A DNA stretch of 64,000 bases from Malus domestica (lineage: Eukaryota > Streptophyta > Magnoliopsida > Rosales > Rosaceae). Shown in pieces: positions 50,568 through 61,775 of this stretch (its first letter is position 1; each line of letters starts with the position of its first letter). The stretch is taken from positions 8,515,001-8,579,000 of the forward strand of contig NC_091673.1 of assembly GCF_042453785.1 (NCBI RefSeq). The letters run 5' to 3'. The notes beneath the pieces are model-generated. The model was given only the letters and a program-made list of their open reading frames with translations. It was not told the DNA's origin and did no database searches. The position numbers and the translations under genes are program-made.

Positions 50568-52258
50568 TGGGTTCTGTTCGTGGCTAGAATTTCCGTCGGG
50601 GATGTCTCCTAGCCGACGAGCACACAGCTTCCCGAAAGGTTGGCGCCGGTTGATGCTTTCTGTCAGGCTTCTGCTTCACTGGCGGGCTTGTTGGGCAAAG
50701 CTGTTCGTGGCTAGAATTTCCGTCGGGGATGTCTCCTAGCCGACGAGCACACAGCTTCCCGAGAGGTTGGCGCCGGTTGATGCTTTCTGTCGGGCTTCTG
50801 CTTCACTGGCGGGCTTGTTGGGCAAAGCTTGTCAGGCAAGGCTTGTCGGGCAAAGCTTGTCAGGCAAGGCTTGTCGGGCAAGGCTGAAAGAGAAGGACAT
50901 AGTTAACTTTGAAATGTGCCTTTGTGGGGCCTTAGGTGTAGGCCTTGAGACTCACAATCAAGATTAACTTTTAAGTGCTCAGGCGTGCCACTGCCACTTT
51001 TAGCATAGCAGATGTAAAATGGATGTTGAATTTTAGTTGTACATATACCCGAGAGGTCGTGTTAGTTATGACAGGTGTCTTTGTAGGGCCTTAGGTGTAG
51101 GCCTTGAAGCTTCCGATCAAGAACTAACCCAGTACTCGAATATACGATGTCTGTTTTATTGTCTGCAGAAGTGTTATAACCATTATACTTCTGATTATCC
51201 GAGCCCGCAGAGCAGAATGAATCCAAATAGGTGCCTTTGTAGGGCCTTAGATATAGGCCTTGAGGCTTCCCATCAGAATCCCTTCTATACTCAAACGTTC
51301 TACTATAATCATAATATAATAAAAATAAAACTAAGAAATAGATCGATTACTTGCGCCCCAAGTAACTTCGGACTTCTTGTTATCAAAGCTTGTCGTGGAT
51401 GGGTTAAGTCCACATAAGGTTCTTTTTTATGCCTTGAGGCCAATGACTTTTCAATGATCAATCTTACATGCCCGAGAGCTTAGAACTTAGATCTGGTTTT
51501 GAACTATGAAGACATATTCAAATCGGATCCAAGAGTTGAGAGAGTCTTTTAATAGTCATCTTACTAGAAATAACTTGAATACAACTTGAAGTATACAACA
51601 TATTGCTAGACTAATGAATGAAAAGACAAAAACAAAGAGGGTCGGGCAAGGTTTAACCTTGTCGGGTAAGGCTGATCGTCTTGCAACTTCCTATCTTTAT
51701 GGTTTATCAAGGGGTTTGAGAGCTTTTATAAAAGGGGGTAGGGAGATGAGTTTACAGAAAGAAATCGATACTACAGCAAGCTTAGGACAAGGTAGCAGAG
51801 CTATTACAAAGGTTTTTGGTGAGGGTTTATCCCGAAAGGAATGAAGGCTTGGGCTGACTATAGCTTCGTTTGAAGGCAAATCTGGCTTTGAGCAGAGTTT
51901 GTGCTTATATTTGTTTGTTTGATTGAGTGTCATTATCCCTGATTTCTCTCTCCTTTTATAGACACTTCGGTTTGGCCTCCTGTAGCAATAATCTTGCCCG
52001 AATGCAGCTTGAAGGGTAATGACTCATCAGCTATTTACTTGTATTGCCATTGTAAAGTACTTTTGGGCTGATTAGCTGGCTGGTCTATACCACTTGGTCT
52101 CTAGGCAGGTGAGCAAGTGGTGCAAATGATCTGCACCTAGTCGGGAAAGGCCTTTTCTGCTTTCTGGGCTTAGGCTCGGCTTCGGGCTTTTCCCCCTTTC
52201 AGACCTCCGTTTGGGCCAACTCCTGCTTGAGCCCAAAGTTCAAGTTTTAATCCAAACA
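50568..52258. mobile_element. Repeat-rich insertion, LTR-like, flanked by a 13-bp near-perfect direct repeat
   Basis: The segment starts TGGGTTCTG and ends CCAAACA. GGTTCGATTTATG (50555-50567) lies before it and GGTTCAATTTATG (52259-52271) after it. Inside are a 127-bp tandem duplication (50574-50700, 50701-50827), four 14-bp CTTGTCRGGCAARG units (50828-50883), and three interspersed CCTTTGTRGGGCCTTAG units near 50919, 51078 and 51233. There is no gag-pol. TG/CA ends suggest a solo LTR, but a 13-bp flank is too long for a normal LTR target duplication, so the class is uncertain. Confidence 0.5.
50574..50883. repeat. 127-bp tandem duplication followed by 14-bp units
   Basis: CTGTTCGTGGCTAGAATTTC starts both long copies (50574 and 50701), which differ at only a few bases. 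Four alternating CTTGTCAGGCAAGG / CTTGTCGGGCAAAG units follow directly. Confidence 0.9.
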
Positions 52259-53088: not shown

Positions 53089-56000
53089 CTACGGAAATAG
53101 GTACATATCAATGTCGTCTACACTCAAGTCATCGCCACCGGAATTTGGTGCATCTGCTTCAGCACCTTCACCGCTAGTGCCTCCTAGTTCAGCCTGCAAG
53201 AGAAGCATATATCTTCGGAAATTAGCTACACCCAAGTCCACGGTATGTTCCGTCACCAAAGATTTGTTGTTTGTTTGCTTACCTTAGCTTGATGGTACCT
53301 CGTCAGCATGCGATGATATTGCTGGCGTGCCTTAGGAGACTCGACCATGGACAGCACACGCGAGACTGCCTCCTCAATGGCTACATTGACTTTTTGTTTG
53401 CGGAACACCTTGAGAATATCTTCATCTTCACTTTCTTCATCAGTCTCTGTCTCCAGCCTAAAGCCACGTAAACCAGCTCCTTTCCTACGCCACCTTAGTA
53501 CAACCTTGTCCAGAATTCCAACAGCCCAGCAAATTACCTTGTAGTGCTTCCTCACCTGATAACCTCTCACATGCGCCTACCAAGACAAATAAATTTAATA
53601 CTTCATTTTACTAACTAGAAGAACATCAATATTCTGAACTTATATGCGGGCGTTGCATCTCGTTAAAATGAAAAAGGTAAAAAAGAAGAGGAATCCTTTT
53701 GTCTAAAGGTGAGGTACCTGTATCTTCACAACTTTCTGGCGGAGAACGAGGAAATCTTTGCGGCCTTTATACCCGCGATATTTCTTTTGAATAGATACTG
53801 CAGCTGAATTGTAATCACGCAGATTGCGAAAGCTTAGCTTTGAACACGCTGAAAGCCCTGGAATGTCAGCTGAACTGATACCATAGTCATCTATACTAAC
53901 ACCAGCTTCTTTCTGTTGCCGTTTTCTGAAAGAATGCGCCCGGAAAGCAGACTGTATGCGTGCTGCAGCCATGGCTGCATTCCGGACTGCAGCCAAGGTG
54001 TTTTTAAGTGACACCTGGTCCTCACTGCCCTCGAGGCTTCTATTTGAGATGCTGTTTACTGTTATTTCTGCTTCAACCTCAGCTGAACCTTTGGAAAACT
54101 CACTTTCTTCCAGTGTAAGGGAGGACAGATGGCTAGTCAGTGACAGCTCTGAAAGATAACCTGCAAGTCCCTTATGCCCATTGATGGCTGCAATAGATGC
54201 CGCAGTTTTTCCAACTGGATCTTGGGAACTGGGATCTGTCACCGCTCCAGCTGATGCACCAGAAGCTACAAGTACGGCAACCATCTTTTCCCTGTTAACA
54301 ATAAGAAAGTTTCAACGATGCACATTGCACAACAAGGGATAGCCTATTTGAGATTAAACAAATCCAAAAGTTCTGCCTAGTAATCACCCTTAATCCTAAT
54401 GGTATGCCGATGCACAAACAAATCTGACCTAATAATACCGATGACATCATTACGTGTTGATATTTGTATCAAGCAATCATATTTGTATACAGATGACAAC
54501 CCATGGGCATTACCCCCTTTGCTATGTTTTTAACAAGCAATAACTCAAAAAGAAATGGAAGTTTCATTACCTTCCAAAACGAGCAGCCCAATGTAGAGCA
54601 GTCCATCCGTTTATGTCGCGGAAATTTATATTGACTCCACAATTAAGTATCGGGTTTAAGGCCCACTCAAATCCCAAACCAGCAACCATGTGTATTATCC
54701 CTTGCTCTTTCTTGGACAAGCAACATCCATACTGGTCAAATTCATGGGATCTGGAAGAAAGCCATTGCTGCAACTTGTCTTTCAGTAGCTCTTCCAAAAG
54801 CCAATATATGGTGGTAGATGTACTTCCATTGCCGAGTAACAGGGATTCAATGATAGTACCCCATGAATCATCATCAGCTTTCAATTTCCTCAAGGACTCA
54901 GACCCAACGCTGTCCCCTTTCTGCACTGATGAATCATACATAAGCATCTGAACGAATCTAACTAGTAATAACAGCTCTTCAGCACTCTTAGCAGCTTCTT
55001 GTGGAGGTGAATTATTGTGAGTATAGCTACTGCTCTTAACTCGATACTCAAACTCCCTGACTTCACTGCAAGACGCCCGATTTCCAGCAGTAACGCAGAC
55101 AGTAACCTTTCCCGGAAGGTGAGGAGGAGCTTCACAACGGATTACACCTTCCTGAATGATCTGAGCAGGGACCTCAACGTCACCAAACATACATGTCCAT
55201 GCAGATTCTGATGGGTCACACAGAAAAGATCCAATAATGATGACCTGCATCGAGCAAAGTAGGTTTTTAAGTACTTTGAAAAGAAATAATATATCTGTTG
55301 ATACACAAAACTGGAGGGGTCTTGGAACAACGTAAATCCGATTGTGAATCTGCAAGAAAGTAAATAACATAAGATGTATCGTGGTTCATCCCAATGTTTG
55401 GGCTACGTCCACACTGATATTGTATTTCTCTGAGAGGATTGTGAGGGAGAAAACCTCTGTAATGTGAGAGGGGATGTGAGAGGGTGAGGGGGCTTCAGGC
55501 CTAAGAGTTGGCCTCCCCTAATGAGGAGAGTGAGGGGTTCTTTTATAGAATAAGGACTCCTCCCTTATTACATATTTGCCCCTTCCTTTATTACATAATT
55601 ACATTTGAGTCCTCCGAGTATTTATACAAAATCTAAATACGGAGGCCCTAAGTATGGTACAAACAGTAGTCCCCCAAGTCTTCAGTCAAGAGAGTCTTTT
55701 GGCTGGAGACTTGAAATTCAGTCCATGTGTGGGCCGAAGTAACTAGATGTTGTCTTGAACTGACGCTCGATATGAGGCGGTGCTCAATCTGAAGTGATGC
55801 TCAACTAGAAGTAGCACATGTTGCGAGGCTGCTCTGCTTGTGGCTTATCTTGCCTTGGTTGGCTCGGCTTGTGGCGTTGAAGGTGAGGGAGTCCATTTTA
55901 TAGAATAAGGGCTCGCTCCTCAATACATAAATAATGGGCTAGAGTTGATGCTCGCGGCGAGGCGGTTGCTCAGTAGGCGGCGATGCTCTCTAATGAAGGT

Positions 56001-59000
56001 GAGGGAGTCCCTTTTATAAAATAAGGGCTCGCTCCTCAGTACATGAATAATAGGTTAGGAGTGATGCTCGCGGCGAGGCGGTTGTTCAGTAGGCGGCGAT
56101 GCTCTCTAATGAAGGTGAGGGAGTCCCTTTTATAAAATAAGAGCTCGCTCCTCAGTACATGAGTAATGAGTTAAGTCCCCCAAGTATTTTTCATGAGGCC
56201 CAGTTGAGGCCCAATATATGATACATAATGTAGTCCCCCAAGTCTTCGGTCAATAGAGTCTGTTGGCTGGGAACTTCAAATTGAATCTATGTATGAGCCG
56301 AAGTGGCGGTTGTTCTAAGGCGGTATTTGTATACCCTGCATTGAAGCTTTGTAGGTGAAGCTTTGAAGCTAGAGCTCTGGAAATGAAGCTTTTGAAGCTA
56401 GAGCTTTTGTAAATGAAGCTTTTGAAGGTAGAGCTTTTGTAAATGAAGCTTTTGAAGGTAAAGCTTTGTAAATGAAGCTTTTGAAGCTGATTGACATGAG
56501 TGATGCTCATGAATGTTTATGTATGATTGACATGAGTGATGCTCATGAATGTTGACATGAGTGATGCTCATGAATGTTTATGTATGATTGATATGAGTAA
56601 TGCTCATGAATGTTTATATATAATTGACATGAGTAATGCTCATGTATAATTTGAAGTACTGGGCGTACTTTTGATTACCTGGTTGGTGATAATAACGGCA
56701 GACTGTCGAATAATTTGGAGTACTGGGCGTACTCTTGATCACCAAGTTGGCGATAATAGCGGCAGGGTGCCGAATAATTTTTTGTAGTACTGGGCGTACT
56801 TTTGGTCACCTGGTTGGTGCTATTTTGGGCTTATGGGCCTTTGCCCTCCACACAACATTCCAACCCATTTATTTTGGGCTTTGCCGTTTTATTTTATTTT
56901 ATTTTTTTTTATTACCCTCTGATGGGGTTTATATAGATGTCTCCGAAAGATGAGAAATAAATCACATCATACAAAAACAAGAAAAGTAAATCACATCATT
57001 CTGGTGGGGTGTTTATTCCTTGCTTTTGCTTTCTCTTTTCTTTTCTGCTTTTGTTTTTCCCACTCCTATTCTTTCTCTTTTCTCTTTTGGCAGATGGCAG
57101 ACAACACCAAAGTGGAATAATAATGGTATTGTTGTAAGACAGTTTATCTGTATCTCTATTTTCATCATTGGCAGCGGACGGTGATCTCATCTTTTGCTTT
57201 TCTTGATCTCTTTCCACTGCACCTCTCTCTGTCTCTGTCTCTGTCTCTGCGTTGCCAGAGATCTGGCTTCCACTTGGTGACGTCAAGGACCGAGTCGATC
57301 ACCTCGGCGCTTTCAGTATAATGACCCTTAGCCCAGTTGTTTCTGGCACCGGAAGGGTTGCTGCACTGGTCTCCCTGGATGTGGAGAATCTCACGCATTT
57401 TGGTGGATGAGAGAGAGTGAGGAAGGAGAAGAAGATTCTTTTTTCCGTCTTTCATGATCTTCCTCTTTTTCTAGTCATGCATTTGTTATGTGAATGTTTA
57501 CACAGTTTTCAAAAGCAGCTGGACGATTAAAGGAAGCCATATCTAATCTGTCTGTTGCAACCGAGGACGATGATAGAGAAGAAGCAGCTGTGCTGGCTCT
57601 GGATCAACATCAGGCTCCTCCTCCAGCTCGGCCTCTGCCTCATCCTCCGGATCGCTATCTGGGTCTGTATCCGATTGGTACCCCCTCATTCTCACAAGCT
57701 TATCAATGCCTCTAAACAATTCCTGGTCAAAATTGCCCGGCAGCCCATTCCGCTTGCTTCTTTCAGTTCCTAAAACCCAGTATGAATCGGAAGCTCGGGA
57801 CTTCGCCTCCCACTGCTTGATCCCCTTGTACTCGCCGAACGACAGCGCTTTCAGGTAGTCGCCCTCTACGACGGCGACCTCGTTCACGAGGATGAGCTCA
57901 TCAGTCGGATTCCAGTCCGGTGCTGCTTACAAACGCGTGCTGCACCGGTTGCTGGAAGAGCGGTGAGATCGGTCGAGCTGGGACGGGGTTTGTTCGGGTT
58001 TCATTTTCGAAATTTATGCTCAAAATGCCATCTTTTTTTTTAAATTGGGCGGCGGTGAGTGTTGAATCGACTTACCCAGGACTAGCAGTCGTTTCGCAGG
58101 GATCGATGGCTCTGTGCAAACCCTAAAACCACAGTGGAGTGTAGTCCTAGCTCTAGCTCTGGCTATAGGATTTTTGTTTGTGAATACTTGTAGGTGCTGT
58201 TGTTGCTCCACTTTTCCTGTGTTGTCTAGAGAGAGAGATGGGACTGGTTCCTCGGGTTTTTCTGGGAAAGCTTTGGGTTGTTGGATTTTTGCAGATTTTG
58301 CAAATTCACGGTGGAGGTGAAAAAATGAAAGAGAACCGACATAGTTTTTTGTGTCGTTTCCCACAGACAGCGCCAAATGTTGATGCACAAAACCGGAGAG
58401 GTCTTAGAACAACGTAAATCTGATCGTGAATCTGCAAGAAAATAAATAACACAAGATGTATCGTGGTTCACCCCAATGTTTGGGCTACGTCTACAATGAT
58501 ATTGTATTTCTTTGAGAGGATTGTGAGGGAGAGAACCTCTGTAATGTGAGAGGGTGAGGGGGCTTCAGGCCTAAGAGTTGCCCCCCCTAATGAGGAGAGT
58601 GAGGGGTCCTTTTATAGAATAAGGACTCCTCACTTATCACATATTTGCCCATTCCTTTATTACATAATTACATCTGAGTCCCCCGAGTGTTTATACGAGA
58701 TCTAAATACGGAGGCCCTAAGTATGGTACAAACAATATCCAAAGGAGAATGTATGACGTTTGAACTTTGTTATAAAGTAGAAACTGAAACCTAGTGGATT
58801 CTGCACTGTTGGACACTTAGCACCTTCATAACTGAACAAAACCAATATCATATAACCCCCTCCCCTTTAAAATGGACATAGGAAAGTACCCACAAACATG
58901 ACTCATTTTAATTGTTGTTTCTTCCGCTGATCAGTGTGATGGTTTGAATTTAAAATTCAAATTATCAGTATACAAACTCTTTATTTTCTCAGGAAAATGT

Positions 59001-61775
59001 AAGATTAAAATGTCAAGTTAAATTTCTAGAGTTGAGGATATTTGGTGTTTGAAAGGGCTTTAATACTTGTATTGGACAATGGGTCATAGAGTTCTGGACC
59101 TATAACTCAAACTTTAGTTTTGAAGCATTAGAAGCACCTGGTAGAAAATATTTGCGCTAGTAGGATAAAACTGAGAACAATCATACCTTTGTCGCTTCAG
59201 TGGCATAACCCCACTCTGGAGATATTTCCCGAATTGTGAACTTTTGATTTTGTGCAACAGTCAAACTAACATCAGATTCAAGAGATCCTATCTGGCCTTG
59301 CTCAAACAACTGTGTATAATAGTCCGAATGTGTTCCAGTCACAGAAGAATACGGAGAAAGATTGAAACTGTCAACTTCTTGTGGCAGTGGCAAGGAATCT
59401 GGTTACAGGTGAAACTTGTTAGAGTCTGAAAATTACTCAAAACGTCCTAAGTGTTAAAGAGATTTTCATAACGAGAAAAGGTTATCATACAATTGTCAAC
59501 AATATTTCCTTTGTAATTTAGCCACTGACAATGCTCCTGCACTTCAGTTGGTCCACTCGAGGAAGAGGCCGGGTTTTCCTGTTCCAATTGGGAAAAAAAA
59601 AACAACGAATTAATGGCTCAATAATTAAAAGGACAACTAAGCAAATAATACAGAGAGGTTATTGCCACCTCAGACACACAGGAGCAAGCTATGCATAAAA
59701 GACAAACAAAGCGGCCAAAAGCCATTAACAAATTCATCTGATAAAGGTGTAATAAAGGTGCAAAATAAAACAGAATACTATGACCTTTTTAGCAACACTC
59801 ACATTTCTGTCCAATATATATAAAGATTTCTCCTCGGACTTTAGGACTGATGAAATCTTATGTGGATCCAGAAACTCCTTCCAAGTAGCAGATTCTTTGT
59901 TACCGTCTTTGAATTCACGGTCAACAATTTGATGCTCCCCACTATAGTCTGCATTACCTTGCATCCGAGCAGGTTCATTGTAGAACCGATCATGTTCAAC
60001 ATATTTAGGTCCATTGAAGGCAGGAAACTGATCCTGATTGGCGATATCACTATAGTCCAGGATATCTAAAGCATTTGGATTATCATCCACAAATCCTTTG
60101 AAGCTGTCCTCATCTAAGCTTAATTGCTCTTCAAGTTGCCGCAAAGCTTGATTAACATCCAACTTAGTCAAACTATCTAGCTCCCCCGTTCCATATAAAT
60201 TTTCTGGGTTCTCCCTTCCATTTTTCTTGATGACTATATCTGAACTAACTTCTAGTGAACCTGGACTGGATAGATTCTGATAAGGCTCACGTAAATCACT
60301 AAATATGGAGATAGAGCCTGGATGAGTAGTATTAGGGCTCGGACTGTGGCTAAAGGAAGAAGATACTGGTGATTGTACGAAAGATCCAGTACTCGGCTTG
60401 CCCTGAAATGCATAATTGTATAAAAAACTATCACAACCTGGTGAGGGGAGAGAGCGAATTCATGTGAAAAGTAGTGAGATATGCCTGGTTTATGATCAGG
60501 TTCTGAAGACTCACCTCATTAGTTTCTCTATAATGCACAAGAACAATGTGCTCATAGGCCCTACAAAAAAAAAAATTATATTTTGTAAAGAATCTCTTCA
60601 GGGAAATGCACTCAACAATAATTGCCAGGGTACTCACGGATCTAGCATCCAATAGCTACGTCTCTGAAAACTTGGGTTGTCCTCTCCATGTGCGTAATAA
60701 CAATTTAAAGTTTCGACATTTCCAACCTGTGCATATGAAACTTGGTTACTCAAGCTGGAACATAAGACTACATTGGCCTCAGTAGTGCAAACAACATTAG
60801 CTTAGTGCAACAACATAAAGAGAGGAAAATAAAGCACGAATTTTTTAACACTAGAAACTATTCCATTGGAATGCTGAACCATCCAAAGAATACAGGACAG
60901 ATAAATTTCATCATTTTATAACTACCCGAGAAAACAAATAACTGTCATGTGTAATAAGGACAGACCTTTTCACAAAAGAACGCATTCAGTGTAACTAAAT
61001 AGACAGCGTTAACAAACCTTAAGCCGTTCATGTGCTTCACCTACGGTTCGTCCATCCTTCTTTTTGCGCCATTGGTGCCCATCTCTACGAAAGAACCGAA
61101 GGATCCTCTTGTTAAAAAGAAATAAAGATCCACCTGTTGGAAAATCCAAAAGAAAAAGATGTAAGGATAAAGAATTCAAAATCTAGTGGAAGCAACAATG
61201 CCACTAAGCCATGCCATTACAATACAATAAGAAGAACACACAGGTGACATACTACTAGGCTGTTGCGGGGGCACCGTTGCGAACTTATACTTGTCATGGT
61301 TCTGCAATATGAAGAGCACTTCAACAGGCTTCAGCCAACGGGTTTGCGCTTCTTGAAACAGATCATTGATGTTATATCCTGAGACATCATATGACATAAA
61401 CAATGTCAAACAGTTTCCAATTGACAAGACAAACACAAATTTGAGATCACTAATAATTATAATGAAATTGTTGTTTACAGCAGGAAAGACTACTTCATGC
61501 AGAGAGAAATTCACCAACAAAACAAGTTCAAATTTCGATGGTTATTAGTTAACAGTCATGTAATTACACATTTCGGTGCATAAGCAAACTTTAATCAAAC
61601 TGTAAACAGGCCCAAATTTCCCTACTTGTAACACGAAAAGGGTCAGAAAATTTCCAATCTTCAACATAATCATAGCATTTTCGTACTCAAAATTCAATAA
61701 AAAATTGTAAAATTTGTATTTTTTTTTCCTGGGTACATGTGAACAAGCTCAGTTGCCTTGCATACCTGATTGCAT
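53089..61775 (-). CDS. CAMTA4: Calmodulin-binding transcription activator, CAMTA4-type
   Basis: Twelve coding exons on the minus strand (61775-61766, 61378-61253, 61133-61018, 60726-60638, 60560-60515, 60402-59803, 59578-59491, 59398-59187, 55244-54571, 54291-53718, 53576-53283, 53193-53089) join in frame to 977 aa. Domains in order: CG-1 DNA-binding (about 10-128, [12 protein letters not shown]...[18 protein letters not shown]...[20 protein letters not shown]), TIG (430-500), ankyrin repeats (about 610-695), IQ motifs at about 766, 821 and 844, and a calmodulin-binding helix (about 858-880, [21 protein letters not shown]). CAMTAs bind CGCG/CGTG elements and couple Ca2+ signals to cold and defence transcription. 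Exon 1 encodes only MQS plus one base. Intron 8 (59186-55245) carries a complete LTR element. No frame lesion is seen. The CAMTA4 assignment rests on the short N-terminus and length. Confidence 0.93.
55296..55665 (-). repeat. LTR (3' in element orientation)
   Basis: TG...CA bounded. It shares with the other copy blocks such as AAGATGTATCGTGGTTCA, CCCAATGTTTGGGCTACGTC and ATACGGAGGCCCTAAGTATG. It has one 14-bp internal length difference (AGGGGATGTGAGAGGG region) and scattered substitutions. Confidence 0.9.
55850..56660. repeat. Tandem repeat blocks inside the LTR element
   Basis: Three kinds of repeat follow one another. About 120-bp units contain GAAGGTGAGGGAGTCC...AATAAGGGCTCGCTCCTCAG (starting near 55880, 55995 and 56115). 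About 32-bp units of AATGAAGCTTTTGAAGSTAGAGC run from 56340 to 56490. TTGACATGAGTGATGCTCATGAATG units run from 56490 to 56645. A second copy of the polypurine-adjacent TAGTCCCCCAAGTCTTC lies at about 56231. Confidence 0.8.
57270..57398 (-). pseudogene. Captured, internally deleted beta-tubulin fragment
   Basis: The minus-strand frame starting at 57398 reads [18 protein letters not shown], closely matching the universal beta-tubulin N-terminus. It continues directly with [20 protein letters not shown], which in intact beta-tubulin lies about 80 residues further on, before losing similarity. About 240 nt of coding sequence is therefore missing. Upstream, 57400-57455 is pyrimidine-rich and looks like the donor gene's 5' leader. 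The fragment sits in sense orientation within the LTR element and cannot make tubulin. Confidence 0.82.
57543..57887 (-). pseudogene. Second gene-like fragment captured by the LTR element
   Basis: An uninterrupted minus-strand frame includes [19 protein letters not shown] and [18 protein letters not shown], followed by an acidic tail of [19 protein letters not shown] type. Composition and codon use look gene-derived rather than random, and it is GC-richer than its surroundings. I do not recognise the donor family. It lies between the tubulin fragment and the 5' LTR, in the same orientation. Confidence 0.5.
58378..58734 (-). repeat. LTR (5' in element orientation)
   Basis: TG...CA bounded partner of 55296-55665, with roughly 5-8% divergence by eye, implying that the insertion is not very recent. 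It is adjacent to the primer-site-like sequence on its inner (left) side. Confidence 0.9.

Follow-up and report, generated by a model that had tools for sequence, protein, structure and literature searches.

What kind of DNA occupies intron 8 of an apple CAMTA gene, where did its interior come from, and does it matter to the gene that holds it? The question arises in a 64,000-nucleotide stretch of the Malus domestica genome (the window, meaning this whole stretch), located on contig C13 in an assembly that totals 651 Mb over 19 contigs, where an element bounded by long terminal repeats (LTRs) lies 51 nt from the acceptor of exon 9 (Table 1). A sequence-only reading of the window had described a complete LTR element with an intact ATATC target duplication, in sense with the gene and about 50 bp from a splice acceptor, and our measurements agree with it on each of these points, including both LTR boundaries and the two exact target copies. 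That reading missed the cargo of host-gene fragments, the wider family behind the element, and the lack of any gag or pol match in the frames scanned. We propose that the insertion is quite probably a non-autonomous LTR retrotransposon that the gene tolerates, and that it belongs to a high-copy, variable-cargo family whose members are filled when reverse transcriptase switches template to host mRNAs packaged with the element RNA.

The element spans 55296-58734, 3439 nt in total, and has the hallmarks of an LTR retrotransposon: two direct LTRs, both starting with TGTTG and finishing with AAACA on the plus strand, a short target duplication, a primer-binding-site-like sequence by the 5′ LTR and a polypurine-tract-like sequence by the 3′ LTR, the last two recognized by position and by similar ends in all 17 copies analyzed below. 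Because of the placement of these two sequences, the element is read on the minus strand, the same sense as CAMTA. None of the element frames, scanned singly (for the plus strand, part of the frames), gave a gag or pol Pfam match, and the gag and pol coding of an autonomous LTR retrotransposon is thus missing from the frames scanned. With its total length and LTRs of 357-370 nt, the element also exceeds the very small size of terminal-repeat retrotransposons in miniature (TRIMs), a class defined by size limits. The two LTRs differ by 23 substitutions over 357 aligned positions (20 transitions and 3 transversions; Kimura two-parameter distance, K2P, 0.068), placing the insertion at about 2.6, 4.9, or 8.6 million years ago under assumed substitution rates of 1.3e-8, 7e-9, and 4e-9 per site per year, respectively. 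Rfam gave no match at the gathering threshold within the window, and a search with one exact 20-mer recovered no family members in viral contigs.

A genome search with the LTR returned 4458 first-look candidates, of which 40 were scored, all 40 matching. Among 25 stretches fetched, 16 carried a pair of near-full LTRs pointing the same way, giving 17 copies with that of the window. These copies are 3.4-6.3 kb long, with LTR-LTR distances of 0.033-0.090, and 13 of them retain exact 5-bp target copies, although those of L046 have the same letters as the LTR start, possibly a boundary effect. All 17 share one architecture, in which the interior starts with TTT (14 TTTGG, 2 TTTGA, 1 TTTAG) and opens with a common leader of 36-112 nt, while the 3′ end is a common part of 1356-1864 nt, repeat-rich and then purine-rich at its end. 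Between the two lies a middle slot of 1089-4042 nt (median 1629) whose content is unshared, mean coverage by the other 16 copies being 0.0-0.2. In the window element, 55666-57059 of the 3′ part is common to the other two-LTR copies and 57060-57283 is present at many other places; the 44-bp start of this part was not found in any of the 16 further two-LTR copies, though it occurs in other family loci. The longest cargo of the 17, at 4042 nt, is that of L043.

The slot holds pieces of host genes, and these are read on one strand. We scanned all stop-to-stop frames of at least 60 codons in the 17 cargos against Pfam (E 0.001). On the element strand, 117 frames gave 18 frame-family matches to 17 families, none of them a transposon family: Enolase_N (2), Tic22, GH14, SUS_N, DUF7899, TBCA, Alg14, I29, GH79 N-terminal, photolyase, cytokinin dehydrogenase, GINT1_N, PP-binding, BES1_N, PRKCSH-like, AAA_assoc, and ArgoN, with at least ArgoN, DUF7899, AAA_assoc, and one of the two enolase frames falling below Pfam's own cut-offs. 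The 101 frames of the opposite strand gave no host family and three frame-family matches, all to copia gag (two families). An earlier, overlapping run on 10 copies had found nine families in 64 element-strand frames versus none in 45 opposite ones. Searches against PDB supported a chlorophyll a/b protein in L052 (= L015), a UGT74-type enzyme in L051 (= L005), sucrose synthase (SUS_N) in L050, and enolase in L053, and weakly an Argonaute in L037 (E 3.8e-4). Tic22 (L040), Alg14 (L043), and I29 (L053) were placed by reading the translations, as were SUS_N and enolase in addition to their PDB matches, while TBCA, BES1_N, PRKCSH-like, and copia gag are counted for the cargo set as a whole rather than per copy. 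Altogether, Pfam, PDB, and the translations read name a host family in 13 of the 17 copies (the window copy, L034, L036, L037, L038, L040, L043, L046, L047, L050, L051, L052, and L053), and the match positions seen lean to the N-terminal parts of the proteins.

Three cargos, those of the window, L040, and L036, were searched against the genome. In L040, query positions 1-552, 551-628, 626-687, and 686-746 align in order on C4 (2365424 to 2361554), the intervening genomic gaps of 117, 606, and 2395 nt being absent from the cargo; positions 748-1033 match C17, and 1093-1291 together with 1294-1355 match C7, where a further genomic gap of 529 nt is absent. L036 is built likewise, with positions 949-1100, 1099-1206, 1201-1332, and 1323-1487 in order on C16 (13892422-13895838) without genomic gaps of 1209, 1372, and 277 nt, and with positions 397-763 and 1493-1668 matching C11 and C3; some pieces, such as 769-912 of this cargo, match many places and may be repeats. 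We infer that the seven missing gaps are introns, in which case L040 and L036 carry host exons without their introns, as expected of a gene-capturing (Bs1-like) element. The window copy contains host pieces as well; the 91 nt of C15:7402547-7403191 absent from its cargo may be either an intron or a deletion.

The best-defined piece of the window cargo is a beta-tubulin fragment. Frame 57455-57165 matches beta-tubulin chains in PDB (best E 3.8e-12; residues 1-19 weakly, 94-122 strongly), and the closest, source-like gene is at C1:29739487-29739872, where the ~239 nt missing between the two tubulin pieces of the element read as coding. At the junction with the family-shared part, ACGTC is present in both (read by eye). 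The C15-type piece has a second matching pair on C8. For the 127-aa frame 57926-57546, which is presumably Myb/SANT-like, Pfam and PDB gave no match that names it; its weak hits to Trypan_PARP and designed proteins fall on an acidic tail and were set aside. Most of the window mosaic recurs at C1:11262048-11263326 (L057) at about 89% identity. The LTR of this sister element is only 78% identical to that of the window despite the similarity of the cargos, and the histories of its LTR and cargo may differ, as if element RNAs recombine.

The bias to the element strand and the missing genomic gaps point to RNA templates, and the pieces of several loci set in a row point to repeated switching. In the process we envisage, reverse transcription would take place inside the particles of an autonomous partner; during copying the enzyme would leave the element RNA, copy spliced host mRNAs, one or several, packaged in the same particle, and go back to the element leader. 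Going further, and tentatively, the slot may be a dedicated one, such that the RNA retains just the termini required for its replication while the middle is refilled by template switching with spliced, often multi-gene host mRNA chimeras, a continuing source of exon shuffling. If so, with thousands of LTR candidates in this one genome, the family would bring chimeric cassettes, equipped with promoters and splice acceptors from the LTRs, close to or into genes such as CAMTA.

Alternatively, the host pieces could have entered at the DNA level, or as processed pseudogenes inserted secondarily into a favored site of the element. Nested or foreign elements do occur in the cargo set, as the antisense copia gag frames attest, and a nested element in L043 may be their source. 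Entry by either route is nonetheless very improbable given that introns are absent, as judged from the gaps, that host matches lie on the element strand only, that pieces of several loci abut within cargos, and that the cargo occupies one and the same slot in 17/17 copies. Nor do the cargos end consistently in a long A-run: nine of the 17 cargos do contain runs of at least nine A's, but the location of these runs varies. Template switching has its own difficulties. The copies were drawn from the top-scoring 40 LTR matches out of 4458 first-look candidates and are not a random sample; the copia gag frames mean that part of the cargo is something other than host mRNA; and L031, L032, L054, and L055 have no host family in the Pfam and PDB scans (PDB gave no match for the cargo frames of L055, L031, and L032; the TON2 label we attach to L055 is an assumption of ours). 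The seams show no consistent overlap, with overlaps of 4, 19, and about 9-10 nt and gaps of 1 and 5 nt, and no autonomous partner was identified. Finally, 3/3 traced cargos recur elsewhere, entirely or in large part, as one more contiguous copy, at L057 for the window, C4:18700185-18700905 for L040 (87%), and C6:20965528-20966225 for L036 (93%). Given these copies, transposition does not require a new capture every time, sampling more widely would reveal cargos held in common, and cargos are also passed on. The C4 and C6 stretches hold parts of the cargos without the gaps of the genes, and are either other element copies or processed copies.

As for the host gene, a splice model built by hand comprises 12 exons in one open frame, and its 977-aa product has CG-1, TIG, ankyrin, and IQ matches in that order, identifying it as a CAMTA, which we take to be member number 4. 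A homeolog at C16:8612330-8613053 is 92% identical, and its intron 8 (L068) is an empty site with one uninterrupted target and no LTR match; across the intron region, 71 of 565 aligned bases differ overall. Since this site is empty, the element appears to have entered one homeolog after the duplication, or at least to be absent from the other. An assembly artefact is an unlikely source of the insertion, because the LTRs differ, the target copies agree, and the homeologous intron is uninterrupted and lacks an LTR match.

Whether the insertion impairs splicing of exon 9 turns on what it left next to the acceptor. The sequence-only reading had supposed that the branch-point and polypyrimidine region was squeezed into about 50 bp or supplied by the LTR. 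The target duplication keeps the last 51 native intron nucleotides unchanged, 45 of the 51 agree between the two genes, and, while these bases hold near-matches to the branch-point motif yTnAy only (e.g., CTTAA at -24), the empty site likewise has no full match within 60 nt of the acceptor, its first being at -85. Because the proximal bases are unaltered and the empty site is equally devoid of the motif, a squeezed branch point is not supported, and we rejected branch-point loss.

Two ways in which the element could alter CAMTA transcripts deserve weighing. In one, the acceptor-like site at 55350 in the 3′ LTR competes with the native acceptor at 55245, and its use inserts 35 residues into the TIG domain. 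A score model trained on the gene's other 10 acceptors, a small training set, ranks 58432 first, 55350 second, and the native acceptor third among the 278 AG sites of intron 8; in models subsampled to 7 of the 10 training sites, 55350 comes second in 119/120 and the native site third in 76/120, and only 12 of 3882 AG sites on the minus strand of the window, 55350 included, score as high. The LTR site has 11 T's at -20 to -5 versus 6, a yTnAy motif 21 nt upstream, and an AG retained in 27 of 30 LTR copies (the window element's two included), and its use would insert a stop-free stretch of 105 nt, phase 0 and in frame (35 codons), at residue 429/430, within the TIG match at 413-495. However, the model rests on 10 sites, which also counts among the weaknesses of our own account, and its score is a rough guide that predicts use poorly, because one real acceptor, that of exon 8, scored -0.96 in leave-one-out. 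Of the 3837 tracts of 105 nt in the intron, 866 are stop-free, to be multiplied by one third to allow for phase, and the open insert may be due to chance. We therefore regard altered splicing of this kind as rather unlikely, and infer that CAMTA splicing is mostly normal, with use of the LTR acceptor as a possible minor isoform.

In the other, the LTRs truncate CAMTA, either by premature polyadenylation, leaving a CG-1-only protein of ~430 residues, or by promoter activity of the 3′ LTR, starting a transcript without CG-1. The element lies in sense orientation, read-through from exon 8 into the intron meets a stop after one codon, AATAAA and TATAAA occur in both LTRs, in-frame ATGs lie at 55370 and 55250, and transcript termination by an intronic LTR is documented for RPP7 and COPIA-R7 in the text of PMC7529245 that bears on it. 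Yet hexamers of the AATAAA/TATAAA type are common in AT-rich DNA, and the single AATAAA (LTR position 74) stands between two TATAAA (40 and 119), so that neither is a clear signal. Moreover, exons 9-12 are intact and the 12-exon frame is open after 6.8% (K2P) LTR divergence, which argues against strong damage to CAMTA and makes truncation, in our estimate, improbable. A CG-1-only product, if made, would be of interest given the N-terminal repression module of CAMTA3, which acts independently of calmodulin binding according to the relevant passages of PMC7744605.

Table 1. Features of the insertion and its surroundings in the window (position 1 is the first letter of the stretch)
Feature	Position	Strand	Remarks
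CAMTA exon 9	54571..55244	-	most of TIG, start of ankyrin
CAMTA intron 8	55245..59186	-	3942 nt; 498 nt after subtraction of the element and one copy of the target
Target-site duplication, left copy ATATC	55291..55295	.	
3′ LTR of element	55296..55665	-	370 nt
Acceptor-like site in 3′ LTR (TGTTATTTACTTTCTTGCAG)	55350..55369	-	rank 2/278 of AG sites in intron 8
Polypurine-tract-like sequence ..GACTTGGGGGACTAC	55666..55690	-	adjoins LTR end at 55665
Family-shared 3′ internal part	55666..57283	-	tandem repeats of 116-, 30-, 36/61-, and 64-bp units
Beta-tubulin fragment	57265..57412	-	start-codon region (about aa 1-14) joined to about aa 93-122; last ~18 nt overlap family-shared part
Cargo piece	57438..57596	-	matches C12:30379653-30379811 (96%) and four other places, whole or in part
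Cargo piece	57593..58154	-	matches C15:7402547-7403191 (94 and 90%); holds most of 127-aa frame 57926-57546
Cargo piece	58136..58238	-	matches C10:13061459-13061561 (93%)
Primer-binding-site-like start TTTGGCGC... and family-shared leader	58266..58377	-	primer-binding-site-like part adjoins LTR at 58378
5′ LTR of element	58378..58734	-	357 nt; second copy of acceptor-like site at 58432-58451
Target-site duplication, right copy ATATC	58735..58739	.	
CAMTA exon 8	59187..59398	-	

Elsewhere in the window, copia-type pieces lie on the minus strand at 88-2476 (Pfam RVT_2 in two frames, and SH3_retrovirus), and the genes between 9947 and 46104 encode, by Pfam, an AMP-binding enzyme, an F-box protein, a DnaJ protein with DUF3444, a piece of a CRE1-type histidine kinase, and NTF2. 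A near-identical tandem duplication of ~129 bp (98%) occupies 50574-50829.

Gene capture by LTR elements is usually reported as single cases or as genome-wide counts. In a variable-slot family, host mRNA packaging and template switching could be tested and counted directly, and such a family would be a possible source of chimeric genes in a fruit-tree genome, while the CAMTA insertion, for which the empty homeolog provides a built-in control, offers a clean site at which to study the effect of a sense LTR near an acceptor. Its closest parallel as an insertion is COPIA-R7 in intron 1 of Arabidopsis RPP7, also an intronic LTR element, which can end host transcripts (PMC7529245); as presented there, that effect was shown by RNA and chromatin data, whereas the CAMTA insertion is known from the genome sequence only.

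As a phenomenon, the capture of genes by LTR elements is already known; a family in which every copy examined has its own filling of one slot was not found in the open-licence papers searched, and may be in print elsewhere. In rice and sorghum, host genes likewise lie within LTR elements, 672 and 1343 having been counted (PMC3726574); that study gives genome-wide counts of annotated genes, its main text does not use the words intron, template, or sense, and its relevant passages describe no single variable-slot family. The GmaRetroS15 TRIMs of soybean, with 30 elements in seven subfamilies and captured exons, resemble the apple family, by the sections of PMC4717578 devoted to them, in their non-autonomous nature, 5-bp target copies, and exon-only fragments of several genes, but they measure 1172-1449 bp, whereas the apple copies reach 3.4-6.3 kb and have a long repeat-rich 3′ part. 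Maize Bs1, in the account of it given by a review (PMC13317346), holds fragments from three host genes, none as a full-length frame, within an LTR element; the apple copies resemble it in carrying host-gene pieces inside an LTR element, and differ in that Bs1 is described as one element with one gene set, whereas here 17 copies hold mutually different sets in the same slot.

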